In this document: in pieces, positions 3,701 to 40,804 of the stretch
Layout: every line of letters starts with the position of its first letter
Numbering within the stretch: the stretch's first letter is position 1
Virus record (IMG/VR): IMGVR_UViG_3300035188_001338
Span: 1-42,532 of that record
Strand: one strand, 5' to 3'
Length of the DNA stretch: 42,532 nt
Source: a virus
The notes under the pieces: generated by a model
Seen by the model: the letters and a program-made list of their open reading frames with translations, nothing else
Told to the model about the DNA's origin: nothing
Database searches by the model: none
Program-made: the position numbers and the translations under genes

Positions 3701-4374
3701 TGATCGTTGGTGTAGTAGGGTTCATCGGTTCTGGAAAAGGAACCGTCGGCGATTTCTTAAAAACTGAATTTGGATTTCACTCTTTAAGTTTTGCCTCCCA
3801 CCTAAAAGATGTTGCTTCCGTTTTATTCGGTTGGGAAAGGCATCTTTTGGAGGGAGATACAGAAGAGTCTAGAAAATTTAGAGAAAAGCCGGATGGTTTT
3901 TGGTCTAAAAAAATCGGTGAACACTTTACACCACGATTAGCATTACAATTACTTGGTACTGAAGCTGGTAGGAATGTATTTCATGAAGATTTTTGGATTT
4001 TTTCTTTAGAAAATAAAATCAAAAAATTAGGAGACAATCAAAATGTGGTGGTAACCGACGTTAGATTTAAAAATGAAATAGAATGGCTGAAAAGCAAAAA
4101 AGGTATTTTGATAGAAGTTCGCAGAGGTGAAAGGCCGTCTTGGTTTCATATTGCCGCAGATGCGAATAGGTCAAATGGGTCCGCTTTCTCGGAAAAGTTT
4201 ATGTTAGAAAAAACTGGTGTACATGAATCCGAATGGAGATGGATAGGCAGCGGCGTGGATTATATTATTGATAATAATGATACTCTGGAAAAATTAAAAG
4301 GAAGAATCACAAACTGCTTGAAAGGCCATTACGGAAGTGATATAATTGAATCTCTTAAACAGAGGAGTTTGTAA
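3700..4374 (+). CDS. 1: Deoxynucleoside monophosphate kinase (T4 gp1-like)
   Basis: Phosphorylates dNMPs to dNDPs to feed phage DNA synthesis. The 224-residue protein starts with a P-loop, GFIGSGKGT (7-15). It continues with the family pattern LSFASHLKDVASVLFGW, a region around RLALQLLGTEAGR, and VVVTDVRFKNEIEWL followed by a basic VRRGERP segment, as in T4 gp1. Start and stop overlap the neighbours by one base each, so it is in a tight operon with gp45. Confidence 0.88.
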   Translation: MIVGVVGFIGSGKGTVGDFLKTEFGFHSLSFASHLKDVASVLFGWERHLLEGDTEESRKFREKPDGFWSKKIGEHFTPRLALQLLGTEAGRNVFHEDFWIFSLENKIKKLGDNQNVVVTDVRFKNEIEWLKSKKGILIEVRRGERPSWFHIAADANRSNGSAFSEKFMLEKTGVHESEWRWIGSGVDYIIDNNDTLEKLKGRITNCLKGHYGSDIIESLKQRSL

Positions 4375-5054
4375 TGAAGTTGACAAATAACACCATGAAT
4401 GTATTGAAGAATTTTTCTACAATTAATCAGAACATTTATGTTAAACCTGGTAATGTTATTGAAACTGTTTCAAAGCAGAAAAATATTTTGGCTAAAGCAA
4501 CAGTGGAAGAAAACTTTCCACAAGAGTTCGGAATTTACGATCTAAACAATTTTTTGGGTGTTCTATCTCTTTCTAAAGGTACTTTACCTGAACTTGATTT
4601 TGAAGATCAAAAAATTATTATCCGCAATCGAGTAGGCAAAAGTAGCACGACATATCATCAATCTAAAAAAGAACTTTTACTTCTTGCCCCTGAGAAAAAA
4701 GTCAGCATGGAAAATGCTGAAATTATTTTCACCATCACAGAAGAGGATCTTGATTGGTGTTTGAAAGCTGCATCCGCACTTAACTCGACCAATATCGCTT
4801 TTGTTTCTGATGGTGCAAATGTCACAGTTGATGTTTTTAATGTAAAAGATGATTCATCTAACGTAAATACAACAACAATTGCAGAAGGTGATGGCAAAAC
4901 TTTTAAAATGATTTTTGCTATAGAAAATTTTAAGTTTATTCTCGGATCATATGATGTTACGATTCATTCACGAGGAATTGGGCACTTTAAAAACAAGTCT
5001 GTACCAATTGAATATTGGGTTACGACCGAACCTGGTTCTACTTACGGAGTTTAA
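4374..5054 (+). CDS. 45: Sliding clamp gp45
   Basis: DNA polymerase processivity ring and, in T4, also the mobile activator of late transcription. Length 226 residues, against 228 in T4. The N-terminus MKLTNNTMNVLKNFSTINQNIYVKPGN and the later blocks GIYDLNNFLGVLSL and a strand-rich C-terminal half with VTIHSRGIGHFKN fit gp45. It lies directly downstream of dNMP kinase and upstream of the DsbA-like gene and the clamp loader, as expected in a T4-like replication cluster. Confidence 0.93.
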   Translation: MKLTNNTMNVLKNFSTINQNIYVKPGNVIETVSKQKNILAKATVEENFPQEFGIYDLNNFLGVLSLSKGTLPELDFEDQKIIIRNRVGKSSTTYHQSKKELLLLAPEKKVSMENAEIIFTITEEDLDWCLKAASALNSTNIAFVSDGANVTVDVFNVKDDSSNVNTTTIAEGDGKTFKMIFAIENFKFILGSYDVTIHSRGIGHFKNKSVPIEYWVTTEPGSTYGV

Positions 5055-34279: not shown

Positions 34280-35476
34280 ATGATTTCGTTTTCAAAATTC
34301 TTACTGGAACAACAAGATCCAGAAGAAGGCGCAAGCCGCCAAATAAAACACTTAACACATGTTGAAGACAGACCTCTCCAAACAGGAGAGAAAGGTGCTT
34401 TGCGCTCTCTATCCGTTCTAAAAGCTGCTGCTGATCACATTGCTTCAGGTAAAAAAAGCTCAGAATTGACAACAAAATATGATGGTTCTCCTTCAATCGT
34501 TTATGGGCATCACCCAGACAGTGGTAAGTTTTTTGTTGCATCCAAGTCAGCTTTCAATAAAACACCTAAGATTAATTATACCGAAAACGACATAGAAAAA
34601 AATCACGGGCATGCACCTGGGCTTGTTGAAAAATTAAAACACGCTTTGAGGCATTTACCAAAAACAACTCCAGAAACAGGAGTGTATCAAGGTGATATGA
34701 TGTTTTCACCTGAAGACAAAAAAACTTCCAAAACAGGTGGTGTGTCTTTTAATCCTAATCCATCAGGTTTAACCTATACTGCACATGGTGATTTAGGTAA
34801 AAAAGCTAAAAGAGCAAAGATTGGTGTCGTAACTCATATAAAATATGAAGGAAAAGATTCTGGTAGTTTAAACGCCTCGCATAAAGTTGACCATGAAAAT
34901 TTTAAAGAACATTCTGATGTTTTTACTGTAAATCCTCAGATGGACACCTCAAAGGTACATTTTGGTCCAAAAGAAAGAGCAGAGTTCAATAAACATATAG
35001 CAGCCGCAGAAGCCGTACATAACACTCACGGTGATGACATGTATGCTGGAACCAGCACACACCATGGTATAGGTGGGCATCTTGAGTCCTACATAAATCA
35101 TACTGTAAGGAGTGGTGAAACACCGAATCATCAGAACTTCAAAAATTGGCTAGAAACAAAGAAAAATAAAGAAATTGATAAGCTAAAAGTTGAAAAAAAT
35201 AAAAAAGCAAAGTCAGAAGAATTAGGAAAAGAGCTTTCAAAGATAGAATCAAACAAAAAACATTATAATAATTTATTTAAAATTCATGGGCACCTACAAA
35301 AAGCAAAAAATGTTCTTATTAATGTTATGAATCAGCATCAACAATTTCAACACCAACATGCAGGCGAGAATGCTAATCCTGAAGGATATGTGTTTCACCA
35401 TAAAAACGACACCGATAAATTTGTAAACAGACAAGAATTCTCCAAAAGGAATTTTGAGGGAATAAGAAACATATGA
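34280..35476 (+). CDS. DUF6267-like protein with nucleic acid ligase (covalent nucleotidyltransferase) motifs and a capsid-targeting-like N-terminus
   Basis: 398 residues. TTKYDGSPSIVYG at 64-76 contains K66-Y-D-G, the KxDG adenylylated-Lys motif of DNA/RNA ligases and capping enzymes. VYQGDMMF (135-142) lies where motif III is expected. EGYVFHHKNDTDKFV (368-382) combines an EGxV-type motif IV with a Lys for motif V. DUF6267 is widespread in T4-like aquatic phages. The N-terminus MISFSKFLLEQ resembles the T4 internal-protein start MKTYQEFIAE, with LLE/Q as a possible prohead-protease site. Inference: a packaged ligase-like protein. Motif spacing is unlike classic small ligases, so activity is unproven. 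Confidence 0.65.
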   Translation: MISFSKFLLEQQDPEEGASRQIKHLTHVEDRPLQTGEKGALRSLSVLKAAADHIASGKKSSELTTKYDGSPSIVYGHHPDSGKFFVASKSAFNKTPKINYTENDIEKNHGHAPGLVEKLKHALRHLPKTTPETGVYQGDMMFSPEDKKTSKTGGVSFNPNPSGLTYTAHGDLGKKAKRAKIGVVTHIKYEGKDSGSLNASHKVDHENFKEHSDVFTVNPQMDTSKVHFGPKERAEFNKHIAAAEAVHNTHGDDMYAGTSTHHGIGGHLESYINHTVRSGETPNHQNFKNWLETKKNKEIDKLKVEKNKKAKSEELGKELSKIESNKKHYNNLFKIHGHLQKAKNVLINVMNQHQQFQHQHAGENANPEGYVFHHKNDTDKFVNRQEFSKRNFEGIRNI

Positions 35477-37374
35477 AAACTTTCCTAGAAAAAGTGGAAG
35501 ACGATAACAGAACTGAAAAGCCAGTTGTAATGGCTTTCGGGCGCATGAATCCACCAACAATCGGGCATGAAAAATTAGTAAATAGAGTACGAGATATTGC
35601 TCGGGATTACAATGCGCCGCATCACATAATCTTATCACATTCAACGGACTCAAAAAAGAATCCCTTACCTGTCAACAGAAAACTGGTACATGCAAAAAGA
35701 TTTTTTCCTGGAGCAAACATAACATCTTCAAGTAAAGAGTTTCCGACTTTCTTACAGCATGCCGCTAGATTGAATCAAATGGGTCATGATCATTTAATCA
35801 TGGTCGGAGGTTCAGACCGTGTTGATGAATACCATGAAAAACTTCATCAGTATAATGGCAAACTTTACAACTTCAAAAAAATAGAAGTTAAGTCTGCCGG
35901 AGAAAGAGATCCTGATGCAGAGGGTATTGAAGGTATGTCTGCTTCTAAAATGAGAGAGCATGCTAAAAACAATGACTTTGCATCCTTTAAACAAGGTGTA
36001 CCTGCACATTTACCAGAAAAACATGCGAGAGAACTATTTAAAGATGTTAGAGGTGGAATGGGTATACATGAAGATGTAAATCATGGCTTGTTTAAAGCTA
36101 TATTTGTGACAGGAGGTCCAGGTTCTGGTAAAGATATTATCATTCGTGAATGCATATCACAGCAAAATGCAGTCGAATTAAACGCCACTTTAGCCATCTC
36201 AATATTGAATGATAAACACAAATTATATGAACAAACCAGTGATATTCGCAGAGAAGCAATACGTAAACGTAGACCGTTAATTATAAATGGAACAACAAAC
36301 GAAGAATTTAAAATTGTAGAGATAAAGAATGAATTAGAAGAATTAGGTTATGAAACAATGATGGTATTTGTTAATACCACAAATGAGTCTTCGAAAAAAA
36401 GAAATATGAGCTTGACGCGAATGATGTTAGAGTCTGTTCGTCAAGAGCGTTGGGAATTAACTCAGATTATTGCCGGAAAATTCAAAAATATTTTTACAAA
36501 GTTCATCGAATTTGACAATTCAATTGATTTAAAAGAATGCACTGAAATTGAATTGGTTAAAAAAGAAGAGGATATTACTCTAGTAAACGAACTGACAAAT
36601 TGGTTTTTTGATATTCCAGTCGAAAATGATATTTCGAATAAATGGTTGATGAGAAATAAAAAAATCAACATGAACAGTTTATTCGAACAAGCTTTCTTAA
36701 AAAATAATATGGGAGAAAATTATGTTTCAAAAAATAAAACAAATAGCAAGACTTTTAATGCCGAAGCAGAAAAGTGCACCTGTGGAACCTCAAAGGCACC
36801 CTCTAGACTCTTTAGTGGATTCCCAAGAAAGAAAGGTCAACGCATTCTTGACAACATCTGCCCCTCTTGCCAACTCACAGCCAAAGCAGGAAGAATCGAT
36901 GATGTCCGTGACGGAGATATCGCGTCAAACACCAAGTACACCTTCAGAACCTATCACGAAGGAAGTCAGCCAACCTCTCCTACAGTTACAAGAGCCCCAG
37001 AAGCCAAAGAAACGAAGTTCCAACAAGACGCAGACAAAATCAAAGCCAAGAAACAAAAGGCAAACAACTCAGAAGCAGGGAAAGTAATGAAAGTTTCGGG
37101 TATATCACCCGAGTATGATACACGAGGTTCAGGTACCGTATATCCAATGTCTGGGCTTGGAATGGTAACATATAGAGAACAAAAAGAAGATAAATATACC
37201 AGTGCCGCAGAGGTAAAGCAAAAATCTTTTAATAAATTTAGAAAAGAAGCAATTGATTCTCCTGGCATAGATATGGGTGTCACTGGTACAGCCCACGGGC
37301 CAACTAATAAAGAACCTTTAGAAACTTTAAATAAGATTGAAACAAATCCTATAATAAAAAAGAAGAAAAAATGA
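35473..37374 (+). CDS. Nucleotidylyltransferase plus P-loop NTPase fusion protein
   Basis: 633 residues. Residues 15-190 are a cytidylyltransferase/NMNAT-type HIGH-fold domain: VVMAFGRMNPPTIGHEKLV (the T/HxGH site), LIMVGGSDRVDEY and IEGMSASKMREHAK (equivalent of the ISSTxxR signature). Residues 205-375 are a P-loop NTPase (FVTGGPGSGKDIIIREC; PLIINGTTNEEF), kinase-like. The rest is charged and probably disordered, with CTC and CPSC pairs and an end conserved in related phages (YREQKEDKYTSAAEVKQ). N-terminus MKTFLEKVEDD is capsid-targeting-like. Overlaps both neighbours by 4 nt. Reactions could be NAD-related or nucleic-acid-end kinase activity; substrate unknown. Confidence 0.72.
   Translation: MKTFLEKVEDDNRTEKPVVMAFGRMNPPTIGHEKLVNRVRDIARDYNAPHHIILSHSTDSKKNPLPVNRKLVHAKRFFPGANITSSSKEFPTFLQHAARLNQMGHDHLIMVGGSDRVDEYHEKLHQYNGKLYNFKKIEVKSAGERDPDAEGIEGMSASKMREHAKNNDFASFKQGVPAHLPEKHARELFKDVRGGMGIHEDVNHGLFKAIFVTGGPGSGKDIIIRECISQQNAVELNATLAISILNDKHKLYEQTSDIRREAIRKRRPLIINGTTNEEFKIVEIKNELEELGYETMMVFVNTTNESSKKRNMSLTRMMLESVRQERWELTQIIAGKFKNIFTKFIEFDNSIDLKECTEIELVKKEEDITLVNELTNWFFDIPVENDISNKWLMRNKKINMNSLFEQAFLKNNMGENYVSKNKTNSKTFNAEAEKCTCGTSKAPSRLFSGFPRKKGQRILDNICPSCQLTAKAGRIDDVRDGDIASNTKYTFRTYHEGSQPTSPTVTRAPEAKETKFQQDADKIKAKKQKANNSEAGKVMKVSGISPEYDTRGSGTVYPMSGLGMVTYREQKEDKYTSAAEVKQKSFNKFRKEAIDSPGIDMGVTGTAHGPTNKEPLETLNKIETNPIIKKKKK
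36722..37087 (+). CDS. Possible overprinted gene inside the 633-residue frame
   Basis: A 121-codon frame in another phase, within the disordered part of the nucleotidyltransferase/P-loop gene. ATG 36722 follows GGGAGA at 36711-36716 with good spacing. The product would be Lys/Gln/Pro/Ser-rich (MFQKIKQIARLLMPKQKSAPVEP...), with an amphipathic N-terminus. The host frame continues with recognisable sequence on both sides, so this is either a true overlapping gene or a chance open frame in a Lys-rich region. Confidence 0.25.
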   Translation: MFQKIKQIARLLMPKQKSAPVEPQRHPLDSLVDSQERKVNAFLTTSAPLANSQPKQEESMMSVTEISRQTPSTPSEPITKEVSQPLLQLQEPQKPKKRSSNKTQTKSKPRNKRQTTQKQGK

Positions 37375-37691
37375 AAAGTTTCAAACAGTTTATCAGCGAA
37401 GAAGTAATAAATGAAGCCACACCTGCTTGGCAAAGGAAGGAAGGTAAGTCCCAATCTGGTGGGTTGAATAGAAAAGGTATTGCTTCATATCGAAGAGAAA
37501 ACCCAGGTTCAAAGCTTTCGATGGCAGTTACAACTAAACCATCAAAGCTTAAAAAAGGTTCTAAAGCATGGAACAGACGTAAATCATTTTGTTCTAGAAT
37601 GACGGGGATGAAGAAAAGATTGACTTCTGCTAAAACGGCAAGAGATCCTAATTCAAGAATTAATAAATCACTTAGAAAGTGGAACTGCTAA
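37371..37691 (+). CDS. DUF6321-like basic protein with capsid-targeting-like N-terminus
   Basis: 106 residues, very basic: TPAWQRKEGKSQSGGLNRKGIASYRRENPGSKLSMAVTTKPSKLKKGSKAWNRRKSFCSRMTGMKKRL... and the ending SLRKWNC. This is the DUF6321 pattern. The start MKSFKQFISEE is very close to the T4 capsid-targeting sequence MKTYQEFIAE, including an ISE/E site that would fit the prohead protease. Probably a DNA-binding internal head or virion protein. Overlaps the upstream gene by ATGA. Confidence 0.78.
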   Translation: MKSFKQFISEEVINEATPAWQRKEGKSQSGGLNRKGIASYRRENPGSKLSMAVTTKPSKLKKGSKAWNRRKSFCSRMTGMKKRLTSAKTARDPNSRINKSLRKWNC

Positions 37692-37703: not shown

Positions 37704-38576
37704 ATGTTCACAAATAATAAATTTGCCAAAATGGATTCTATTGCGAACCTGGTTAAAAATATCCTTGAGGCCGACACAAAGGCTAAAATGGAAGAATTAA
37801 AAGGTAATCAGCATAAGATCGATAAGAATAAGAATAACAAAATCGATGCACAAGATTTTGCAATTCTCCGTGGGCAGAAGAAGGGTATGAAAAAAGAATC
37901 CGAACAGGTTGATGAAGCAAGTCATCAAGCTAAAACTACAATGAAGCATATCACCAAGCCAACAGCAGGGGAGAAAAAGGCTTCAAAAGATATTAAGCCA
38001 GGAGTAGCCGGTTATCGTGATCGGATTGCAATGCTTAAATCTGCTGAAGCTCGTGGTGCTTTGAAGAAAGAAGAAGCAGAACAAGTTAATGAAGCAAGAG
38101 TCAAGGGCAAAGGTTACGATAACCCTGAAAATGAGCGCAAAGCTCCTGAGGGTCATGTATCAATGACAAGTTTAATGCCTGGGCACGATGAACGTGCAGC
38201 CAAGTTTCTAGCTCGTCAAGCTAAAGGTAAATTGGTTAAAGGTAAAGCACAAAGCGCACCACAAAAAGAAGAAACTGATCCAAATAAAACCACCACAGAT
38301 ACATTGAAGGGTAGAGAAAAATCCTCCTCTAATCCTTTCCTTTCAAAGAAAGTTATGATGGATGTTCCTGATAATGTCAAAGAAGAAGTGGAACAGGTTG
38401 ATGAACGTAAAATGACAAAGCCAGAAGCAGCAGAAAAAGAGCGTATCGTAAAGGGTATGAAAAAGAGTCTTGCTGGGTTCAAATCTCGTTACGGAGAAAG
38501 AGCAAAAAATGTGATGTATGCAACGGCCACCAAGCAAGCCATGAAGTCAGAGGAAGTTCACGAAAAAAAAAAGTAA
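37704..38576 (+). CDS. Lys/Glu-rich beads-on-a-string protein, zero-frame product
   Basis: 290 residues. An early NILEADTK (ILE/A, 20-23) is a possible protease site. An EF-hand/dockerin-like loop DKNKNNKIDAQDF follows at about 40-52. Then come basic segments punctuated by EQVDE/A (69-72), EQVNE/A and EEVEQVDE/R. This resembles beads-on-a-string head proteins of T4-like aquatic phages. The gene ends HEKKK-stop at a slippery A AAA AAG directly before TAA; a coding domain continues in the -1 frame. AGGAG-type RBS (GGAGAAAAAG) 6-9 nt upstream. Likely an internal, processed virion protein. Confidence 0.75.
   Translation: MFTNNKFAKMDSIANLVKNILEADTKAKMEELKGNQHKIDKNKNNKIDAQDFAILRGQKKGMKKESEQVDEASHQAKTTMKHITKPTAGEKKASKDIKPGVAGYRDRIAMLKSAEARGALKKEEAEQVNEARVKGKGYDNPENERKAPEGHVSMTSLMPGHDERAAKFLARQAKGKLVKGKAQSAPQKEETDPNKTTTDTLKGREKSSSNPFLSKKVMMDVPDNVKEEVEQVDERKMTKPEAAEKERIVKGMKKSLAGFKSRYGERAKNVMYATATKQAMKSEEVHEKKK
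38551..38576 (+). promoter_or_regulatory. Predicted programmed -1 ribosomal frameshift site
   Basis: AGGAAG (38551-38556), then A AAA AAG (38567-38573; the A run is 10 nt, 38563-38572), then TAA in zero frame (38574-38576). The heptamer, its phase and the 10-nt SD spacing match the E. coli dnaX frameshift signal. A homopolymer sequencing error is the alternative. Confidence 0.65.
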
Positions 38577-38839
38577 ATGAATCCGAAGACAAATTCTTAG
38601 GTGCTGGTTTAAAAAGAGCGGTTAAAGGAGCAGAATTTCGAAAGGAGCTTGGGCATGAAGACCGACCAGCGCGTCGATCAAGCCGTAGTTATGGACGCAC
38701 AGATGTTTACGGCAATAAAATAGAAGTGCCACATTCTGTTCATATCAACGGTAAAAAGTGGAAGACCTTCGGATCATTCAGTCATGCTAATAATGTGGCA
38801 AAAAAGATTAAAGGTGCAACTGTTCATTATGAAGGATGA
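38573..38839 (+). CDS. C-terminal domain reached by -1 frameshift from the gene at 37704
   Basis: In the -1 frame the sequence reads VNESEDKFLGAGLKRAVKGAEFRKELG, a basic DRPARRSSRSYGRTDVYG linker, then VHINGKKWKTFGSFSHANNVAKKIKG to a TGA at 38837-38839. No good start codon or RBS lies inside it. The VNE/S junction repeats the EQVNE/A site pattern of the zero-frame protein, and HINGKKWKTFGS...AN.VA resembles a small domain I recall from structural proteins of related phages. So this 88-residue piece is best read as a frameshift extension rather than a gene of its own. It also explains the 290-nt gap between genes. Confidence 0.65.
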   Translation, partial: VNESEDKFLGAGLKRAVKGAEFRKELGHEDRPARRSSRSYGRTDVYGNKIEVPHSVHINGKKWKTFGSFSHANNVAKKIKGATVHYEG

Positions 38840-38866: not shown

Positions 38867-40804
38867 ATGAGTGAACGCAAAAAACAGATATTTTTAGAAG
38901 CAATTAAAAAATCTAAAAAAGAATCTGTTATGGGTAAATTAGCAAACGGTGATACCGATCCGATGGAGCCATGGTCTAAAAAACATGCTCCATTGGATGA
39001 AGTCAACACTCAAGTCCTTTGGAAATATATCAAAGCTATGGGTCGTGATCCAAAAACTATACCACTTGCCGACAGACTCAATCTAGCAAGAACAGATAAA
39101 TTTAAGAAGTTCTCAAGAGATCATGCTAAATTTACAGATGTAGGTGAAAGTGTTGAACAAATCGATGAAGCCGGCACAGGTTTACTTATGTCATTCATCA
39201 AAGCAAAGGGATTAGATCCTAGATCGATGGACGGAAATCAGAAAAACAAATATTCAAAATCAAGTGAATATAAAACTTTTAAGCACAGAAGAGTCGAAGC
39301 ATCCGGTATGGGTGAACGCGGTGAGGATTGGAATGAAGAAAAGAAACCTGTAAAAGAAGCCGTAGATGCAAAAGATACTGTGACAATGGACATTCCATTG
39401 CTGATTCGTGTTCTTGAATATGCTCGTGAAGATGCAAAGACAGATATGGATCTCCACAAAGTTGTAGAAAATCTTATCAATATGAGAAAAGACACTTTGA
39501 CAATGCATGACTATGATTCAATAGTCAGCATCAAAGAAGAAGTTGAAATTCAAGAAGCGTTTGATGGATCGAAAGTTCGTATTCATTCTCCTGGGCACGA
39601 AATGCATGGTAAAATTGGTAGAGTGTTTGACCGCCACGAAGATGGTCGTGTAAATGCTCAATTTGAAATGGGGCCTAAAAAACATCAAGTCCGAAACTAT
39701 ACACTTAAACCTGGTCAATTTAAAGAAGTTACAAATGAGGACGTTGAACAGATTGATGAACTTAAAAAGCAATCTGATACACAGGATTTAGATTCACATA
39801 TTACGAAAGAAGATTTAAGAAAGTGGTTTAATCCAAAACATCCAGAAGGTGGCTGGAAAAGAATCAATAGTAAGGGTGAAGCTATCGGTCCATGCGCCCG
39901 TGAGCCAGGTGAACCAAAGCCTAAATGTATGTCTAATGAAAAAAGAGCAAAGCTGTCAAAAAAAGAAAGAGCTTCAGCAGTAGCAGCAAAACGTAAACAT
40001 GATCCTGTTGCTGATAGAGCAGGTAAAGGTGGTAAACCAGTTAATGTTTCAAACTTTGGTAAAGGTAAAATTTCCGAAGAAGAAACAAATGAAGCTTGCT
40101 GGGATACACACAAACAAGTTGGAATGAAGAAAAAAGGTAATAAAATGGTACCGAATTGTGTACCAAAAAATGAAGAAGTTGAAATGATTGATGAAAAGAA
40201 TTCACCAACAAATCCTAAACTTTGGGCTAGAGCAAAATCACTAGCACGTTCGAAGTTCGATGTTTATCCATCCGCTTATGCAAACGGCTGGGCATCCAAA
40301 TGGTATAAATCAAAGGGTGGCGGTTGGAAAGCAACAAAAGAAGAAGTTGAAATAGAAGAACAAAGAACATCAAATGATCCACGTAAATCAGGTACTTTTG
40401 AAAAGCAGCCAGACGGATCATTTAAGAGGGTTTCAAATCTTGATAAACTCAAAAGAAGATTAATGCAAAAGCATGGTGATAAATTAAAAAAGAAAATAAA
40501 TGAGGGCATTTATGGTATAGAAGACTCACCAATGTCCGCAACAAATTCTGTAAAAGCTATGGAATCTAGAATGGCTAAAGAGAAATCTAAATCCGCCAGA
40601 ATTATAAAAGCTATTTACAGGAAAAAAGGCATCAAAGAAACACTGTACGATTGGGAAAAATCAGAAAAAGGTGGTTCAAAAGAAGCTGATGCAAAAATTA
40701 TCATTAAAGGTGGTAAAACTATGACTGGTCAAGAAAGAGATACGGTTGAAATCGACCCTGTACTCAAGACCAAATTGAACAGCCCGAATGGTAGACCCAA
40801 TTAA
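38867..40804 (+). CDS. Large beads-on-a-string basic protein with repeated protease-like sites
   Basis: 645 residues built from small domains separated by acidic EEVE(Q/M)IDE-type linkers. Sites: IDE/A (99-102), IQE/A (228-231), IDE/L (296-299), TNE/A (407-410), IDE/K (441-444) and IEE/Q (496-499). Beads between them: two related copies with WKYIKAMGRDP and MSFIKAKGLDP; an SH3/KOW-like bead (VRIHSPGHEMHGKIGRVFD); DLRKWFNPKHPEGGWKRIN...GPCAREPGEPKPKC (DUF5872-like); ACWDTHKQVGMKKKGNKMVPNC; and ARAKSLARSKFDVYPSAYANGWASKW (DUF5872-like). Most (I/L)xE sites fit the T4 gp21 prohead protease consensus. I infer an internal head polyprotein or scaffold-associated DNA-binding protein. Confidence 0.72.
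   Translation: MSERKKQIFLEAIKKSKKESVMGKLANGDTDPMEPWSKKHAPLDEVNTQVLWKYIKAMGRDPKTIPLADRLNLARTDKFKKFSRDHAKFTDVGESVEQIDEAGTGLLMSFIKAKGLDPRSMDGNQKNKYSKSSEYKTFKHRRVEASGMGERGEDWNEEKKPVKEAVDAKDTVTMDIPLLIRVLEYAREDAKTDMDLHKVVENLINMRKDTLTMHDYDSIVSIKEEVEIQEAFDGSKVRIHSPGHEMHGKIGRVFDRHEDGRVNAQFEMGPKKHQVRNYTLKPGQFKEVTNEDVEQIDELKKQSDTQDLDSHITKEDLRKWFNPKHPEGGWKRINSKGEAIGPCAREPGEPKPKCMSNEKRAKLSKKERASAVAAKRKHDPVADRAGKGGKPVNVSNFGKGKISEEETNEACWDTHKQVGMKKKGNKMVPNCVPKNEEVEMIDEKNSPTNPKLWARAKSLARSKFDVYPSAYANGWASKWYKSKGGGWKATKEEVEIEEQRTSNDPRKSGTFEKQPDGSFKRVSNLDKLKRRLMQKHGDKLKKKINEGIYGIEDSPMSATNSVKAMESRMAKEKSKSARIIKAIYRKKGIKETLYDWEKSEKGGSKEADAKIIIKGGKTMTGQERDTVEIDPVLKTKLNSPNGRPN

Follow-up and report, generated by a model that had tools for sequence, protein, structure and literature searches.

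Gene A of the window (the whole stretch of viral DNA analysed here, 42,532 nucleotides) probably ends in a -1 recoding junction, at which most expression would stop at the TAA codon to give a protein of 290 aa, while some would pass, by slippage on A10-G, into a 378-aa protein (290 + 88) whose C-terminus would be a small domain encoded in the -1 frame. In the mechanism we propose, the two Lys-tRNAs on A_AAA_AAG would re-pair one base back, helped by the adjoining stop codon and, perhaps, the AGGAAG stretch upstream; slippage of RNA polymerase on the run may contribute, and the peptide would be identical. The making of both products here, and any fixed ratio or use of them, are predictions. Recoding is the best reading of the site, over an assembly error. 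In uncultivated phages, comparison suggested that three gene families carry conserved frameshift junctions, and a gene caller blind to frameshifts would end such a gene at its stop, so that the C-terminal domain would be lost.

The junction at the 3' end of gene A

The layout put forward in the original prediction, with A AAA AAG abutting the zero-frame stop (38567-38576) and AGGAAG 10 nt upstream (38551-38556), was confirmed (Table 1). The product of gene A ended in ...EEVHEKKK, with GAA AAA AAA AAG TAA as the last codons. The -1 frame was likewise open for the expected stretch of about 88 codons (38573-38836) and domain-like, with homologues in IMG/VR. Read from G38573, its 88 codons gave VNESEDKFLGAG...ATVHYEG, beginning with V-N-E, and that many open codons would occur by chance with p ~0.003 under a first-order Markov model of the window. 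As the frame stayed open to TGA, the gap downstream of gene A would be coding up to 27 nt before gene B (38867). The VNE linker that the extension was said to share with the upstream protein was present there once (EEAEQVNE), the linkers otherwise being mostly of the VDE kind.

Table 1. Positions of the junction, its predicted signals and the neighboring genes in the window.
Feature	Position	Strand	Remarks
Gene A, zero-frame ORF, short product of 290 aa	37704-38576	+	Small modules with EEVEQVDE-like linkers between them
SD-like AGGAAG, 10 nt 5' of the heptamer	38551-38556	+	
A10 run (10 A)	38563-38572	+	Followed by G38573; of equal length in L002 and L003
Putative slippery heptamer A_AAA_AAG, zero frame	38567-38573	+	
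Zero-frame stop TAA, with the heptamer directly before it	38574-38576	+	
-1 frame extension, 88 aa plus stop TGA (38837-38839)	38573-38839	+	Conserved core HINGKKWKTFGS..HANNVAKKIKGATVH
Gene B, next downstream of gene A	38867-40804	+	Synteny marker
Cytidyltransferase-like gene, 5' of gene A	35473-37374	+	Synteny marker

AGGAAG fell within a GAG GAA pair, the only one among the 12 Glu-Glu codon pairs that genes A and B contain. The window had SD-like purines at 10 nt, but Glu-rich linkers yield such stretches, and of two relatives described below, L190 had GAGGT 5' of its run and L053 had nothing similar. No significant hairpin was found 3' of the window site (z -0.17 over 45 nt and z +0.51 over 107 nt). 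Runs of at least nine A or T were scarce in the window, with one found in 42.5 kb where the first-order Markov model expected ~8.5.

The window-type site was present in three contigs that were 99.94-100% identical, namely the window, L002 (the same as L046) and L003 (the same as L047). L047 was identical to the window over 10,134 bases, and L046 showed 5 differences in 8,855 bases, all within 25 bases near its contig end; L046 was rejected as an independent strain. The original prediction had named a run of 9 or 11 A as the sign of a false frame, and the run was A10 in 3 of the 3 contigs. Both L046 and L047 were weak as independent evidence, because their reads may be common with those of the window. 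A sequencing or assembly error in the homopolymer, which shared reads could carry into all window-type contigs, is nonetheless very improbable, as A10 agreed in three assemblies and the arrangement was repeated in 27 distinct related junctions.

Homologues of the extension and relatives of gene A

A scan of IMG/VR placed the domain of the window's -1 peptide at 44 viral loci, where, two near-identical window copies excepted, the homologues were found at E 9e-26 and weaker. The domain lay in an open frame with an upstream start in 42 of the 44, the other two being the window copies with the run. A run of at least 7 A in the 90 nt before the domain match occurred in 0 of the 42 in-frame loci, so the long run of the window does not descend from the in-frame linker that usually precedes the domain. 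The proteins that held the domain varied: some were modular, with EEVEQVDE-like linkers, gene B itself was the host in L011-L013, and in some loci, such as L035 and L036, the domain formed the main part of short genes of its own. In L043 and L044 it was the C-terminus of an unbroken protein that also held the RYG..MYATATK module of gene A, in the module order of gene A with other modules in between. The refuting case named in the original prediction, in which homologues always have the parts as separate genes, therefore does not hold. The diverse protein contexts, including the short genes, indicate that the domain is a mobile module and not a fixed tail of gene A.

Across 33 codons of the core, 12 synonymous bases and 2 changed codons separated the window from L004; read in either of the other two frames, every differing codon (14 in one, 13 in the other) was changed. 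In the predicted structure of the -1 domain, with a mean pLDDT of 69 over its full length, only residues ~51-88 were confident, and these formed a beta-beta-alpha-beta core; the model had no match among solved structures at E <= 0.001.

With gene A as the query, 19 loci were recovered, and the start of gene B recovered 29. In the five closest relatives (L048-L052), the gene ended shortly before gene B with neither the run nor an extension. Such an extension was missing from 25 of the 29 loci of the gene B set, the rest being the two window copies, L191 (the same contig as L053) and L190. In L053, the gene ended in CGA AAA AAA AAG TGA (A9), and the -1 frame, beginning with a GTG that overlapped the zero-frame stop, continued as VNEELIDEKSVSQAQQKFMG... 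for 128 codons and matched DUF3008. L190 carried the L053-type extension in frame after A10 (GAA AAA AAA AAG ATA AGT GAA), where a -1 slip would hit a stop at the third codon. Over 57 codons of extension, the two differed by 14 synonymous versus 3 changed codons, so the out-of-frame copy of L053 was without a sign of decay. This change of default frame at one junction amounts to a natural experiment on selection for the run and for both product lengths. The hairpin downstream of the L053 site was not significant (z -0.97), and that of L190 had z -2.35. In the 93 sequences of relatives (776 kb, redundant), 5 distinct runs of at least nine A were found and 3 of them stood at the junction (window, L053 and L190); when the set was enlarged to 173 sequences (1.34 Mb), a large part of them chosen for DUF3008, the junction accounted for 3 of 13.

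Wider relatives were collected with a gene A alignment query built from four out-of-frame members and with two peptide patterns upstream of the site. Among the best 80 of 140 loci, 52 had a zero-frame stop immediately preceded by an A run and a G, and a -1 extension behind it, 9 had an A9 run with the long frame as the default, in which a -1 slip would lead to a stop at the third codon, 17 had a junction without the run, and 2 ran off their contigs. In 51 of the 52 out-of-frame loci (best 80 of 140) the run was A7, the exception being L361 (A10 with TGA), and the 52 comprised 27 distinct 160-nt junctions. Among 17 distinct A7 sequences, the -1 frame gave a median dN/dS of 0.122 (132 pairs), and the same bases in the other frames gave 1.81 (24 pairs) and 1.11 (55 pairs); the zero-frame part before the stop gave 0.176 (130 pairs). 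These values indicate that in the A7 clade the -1 frame is the coding frame and the interrupted state is maintained. As the window's domain lies outside the A7 set, this extends to the window by analogy of site and gene position. A hairpin with z <= -2 followed the site in 2 of the 18 out-of-frame relatives tested (L294 and L304) and in 1 of 6 in-frame A9 relatives (L341).

Among the matches listed by a blind pattern scan were relatives of gene A whose extension was of a third kind (L080, L087, L101 and L146), as well as the two families F2 and F3 described below. Gene order in the L080 type was cytidyltransferase, gene A and gene B, as in the window, with 56% identity to the window over 64 aa at the N-terminus of gene A and 40% over 126 aa in gene B. 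The first examples had been selected by motif, and so the later protein searches were the actual test, although their queries also favored loci of this kind; a scan for the heptamer returned mostly ordinary neighboring genes. Sequence comparison shows, among syntenic relatives of gene A, A-run junctions that lead into conserved -1 extensions, with varied domains behind them. The original prediction, of a short and a long form from a -1 site, drew support from this conservation of the site in relatives, although the closest orthologues lack it, the forms themselves being predicted.

The recurrence of the junction bears on a recent frameshift mutation, in which an indel in the A run would have cut off an in-frame extension and left a -1 part unexpressed and not yet decayed. 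Such an event would fit a version limited to three near-identical contigs and missing from the closest orthologues, long A runs are indel-prone, and a core intact relative to L004 is equally expected after a recent break. We consider it unlikely even so, as out-of-frame A-run junctions recurred in L053 and in the 52 of 80 loci (best 80 of 140), where the extensions are of other kinds, the -1 frame was under purifying selection in the tested subset of relatives, and none of the 42 in-frame domain homologues had at least 7 A before the domain.

Several other features were seen among these sequences. Between gene A and gene B, L197 had an ORF of ~190 aa (3893-4468) with repeated GDNHWSKR motifs, which we would guess to be a homing endonuclease insertion. 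Gene A of L208 (3869-4458) was broken mid-way in comparison with the similar L209, by mutation or by an assembly fault. In-frame A9 runs lay inside long proteins in L022 (7921), at a KKKVAE linker, and in L276 (3981), just 5' of a DUF3008-like stretch.

Parallel junctions in other proteins

F2 (L374-L453) was collected with two patterns, one of them [SP]KKKVNE, and the best 80 of 372 loci were kept. The zero-frame protein ended in SKKK with A9, as in L374 (base after the run 1298), and the -1 extension was ~101-129 codons long; the family matched the 'virion structural protein' family phrog_14154 (E 3e-7). Among these best 80 of 372, 8 loci had no run, 1 was cut short, and the remaining 71 reduced to 48 distinct sequences, whose runs were A9 in 42, A10 in 3, A8 in 2 and A11 in 1. 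The zero-frame stop of the same loci stood 0 to 22 nt after the run, which makes the run the constant element and the stop a variable one. In 547 kb of F2 sequence (best 80 of 372), the site accounted for 40 of the 43 distinct runs of at least nine A. A hairpin with z <= -2 was found at 26 of 46 sites (best 80 of 372); in a subset of 10, 93% of cells were paired versus 27-50% in slid controls, and covariation was modest, with one pair changed on both sides. The dN/dS of 0.47, against 0.99 and 1.31 in the shifted frames, was weak evidence, as dS was near saturation.

In the 8 F2 relatives without the run (best 80 of 372), the downstream part seemed to be a separate gene with its own ATG. These loci would favor a separate gene with its own start for the window's -1 part as well, as would the occurrence of its domain in the short genes of L035 and L036 and the GTG of the L053 extension. 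The earliest ATG, GTG or TTG in the window's -1 frame was a GTG at codon 52, inside the conserved part, and we regard a separate gene as highly improbable.

F3 (L454-L488, and also L077, L083, L104 and L148) was a protein of ~104 aa ending in KKK, with a -1 extension of ~137 aa that contained a hydrophobic, membrane-like stretch. Of 34 scorable loci recovered with the -1 part itself as the query, 33 showed the -1 arrangement, and in 29 of these the run abutted the stop; 1 locus did not fit and 1 was cut. None of the -1 parts (those of gene A, F2, the L080 type and F3) had a match among annotated phage records, in which the zero-frame part of F2 had one partial match, in a Sinorhizobium phage. 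No phage in the records tested convincingly held both the F2 and the gene A types; the weak matches (E 5e-7 and 2e-5) were stretches of the gene A region that share a module. As they were not found together in those records, the two types are parallels and not one gene. Two further arrangements were noted: another modular protein in L065 (4435) and L096, whose junction reads A7-G-TAA and whose -1 VNE extension is 53 aa long, and a different protein of ~529 aa in L079 (3176-4762), with an NVKKK end, A9-G-TAA and a -1 extension of 81 aa.

The run lengths of the two larger sets also bear on phase variation, in which the run would change length during replication and the population would switch between the short and long forms. 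Run and default frame do vary, as illustrated by the out-of-frame A9 of L053, the in-frame A10 of L190 and the in-frame A9 runs in 9 of 80 loci (best 80 of 140). Nevertheless, A10 was kept in all three window-type contigs, and A7 in 51 of 52 (best 80 of 140) and A9 in 42 of 48 F2 sites (best 80 of 372) were steadier than a switch would be, making this quite improbable.

Transcriptional slippage alone would have the polymerase stutter on A10, altering some mRNAs while the ribosome keeps its frame. It has a precedent in the Thermus dnaX gene with nine A (PMC1088944), and the window's run exceeds nine A; the same source reports selection against runs of nine A, one base shorter than A10, as evident in a large share of bacterial genomes (PMC1088944). 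The under-representation of long runs in the window and the lack of a significant hairpin there would also suit it. However, 51 of the 52 out-of-frame relatives (best 80 of 140) had only A7, which we infer is probably too short for polymerase slippage; strong hairpins accompany the run at many F2 sites, and the spacing of AGGAAG is favorable, and these two features suit ribosomes. Slippage by the polymerase alone therefore strikes us as rather unlikely. Ribosomal slippage, perhaps with a transcriptional share, seems to us more likely, given the efficient motif, the adjacent stop, the placement of AGGAAG, the A7 kept in many relatives and the hairpins of F2. Combined with a stimulator, A_AAA_AAG is one of the most efficient -1 motifs in E. 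coli (PMC4066793). Sites with strong hairpins, as in F2, and sites without them, as in the window, are both open to experiment.

We tentatively suggest, at somewhat less than even confidence, that A-run slip junctions are both recurrent and portable. A7-A11 would encode a linker of the form KKK|V(N/D/T/S)E between an N-terminal protein and an interchangeable C-terminal domain, selection would keep both lengths with either the short or the long form as the default, and this would hold in at least three unrelated families from different phage lineages.

Phage context and known systems

The window encoded T4-type replication genes, with a clamp loader (phrog_168), a DNA polymerase (phrog_262), a UvsX-like protein (phrog_97) and a DnaB-like helicase (phrog_19), which by homology mark it as part of a T4-like phage. 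Its DNA relatives among annotated records were mainly cyanophages and pelagiphages, and 8 cyanophage records matched the short part of gene A over 14-32% of its length. For the prediction that gene A encodes a head-type protein, homology gave no support: gene A matched no head protein family above threshold, only families of unknown function. The neighboring ORF at 37371-37691 matched an internal head protein family, but below threshold (E 0.062). The linkers of gene A could be prohead-protease sites, and the N-termini of its neighbors may resemble capsid targeting sequences; from these we would guess that the head takes up the gene A product. A candidate overlapping gene, an ORF of 121 aa (36722-37087), was nested out of frame within the cytidyltransferase-like gene; open frames of 111-130 codons were present at the matching place in L049-L053, and L080 had a nested ORF of 115 aa (339-686).

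The class of mechanism is already known. The known programmed frameshifts of phages occur mainly in tail chaperones and in a few capsid genes. Nothing describing the present genes was found by title or start of abstract in the literature searched, which covered subscription papers thinly.

In E. coli, dnaX undergoes -1 programmed ribosomal frameshifting with an SD-like stretch ~10 nt upstream, giving a short and a long product, of which the long one is the zero-frame form. The dnaX-type layout originally proposed for gene A held in part, for the in-frame heptamer and, less clearly in view of the Glu-rich linkers, for the SD-like spacing, to which two product lengths can be added by inference. 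It did not hold in two respects: the zero frame of the window is the short form, with the stop abutting the heptamer, and the hairpin of the window was not significant, whereas F2 and a few gene A relatives have one. The dnaX gene of Thermus thermophilus, with transcriptional slippage on nine A (PMC1088944), resembles the window in its long A run and in the two product lengths per gene that are predicted here. It differs from most gene A relatives, which have A7, and from F2, which adds hairpins.

Tail assembly chaperones of phages are cited as -1 frameshift genes (in PMC3711429), and the major head protein of phage A2 as a frameshift gene (by a title cited in PMC10885494). For the tail chaperones of T4-like phages, two gene copies and not frameshifting are reported (PMC10885494). 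The genes concerned are unlike gene A, but the tail chaperones and the A2 head protein share with the proposed junction a -1 frameshift that would yield a C-terminally extended minor form.
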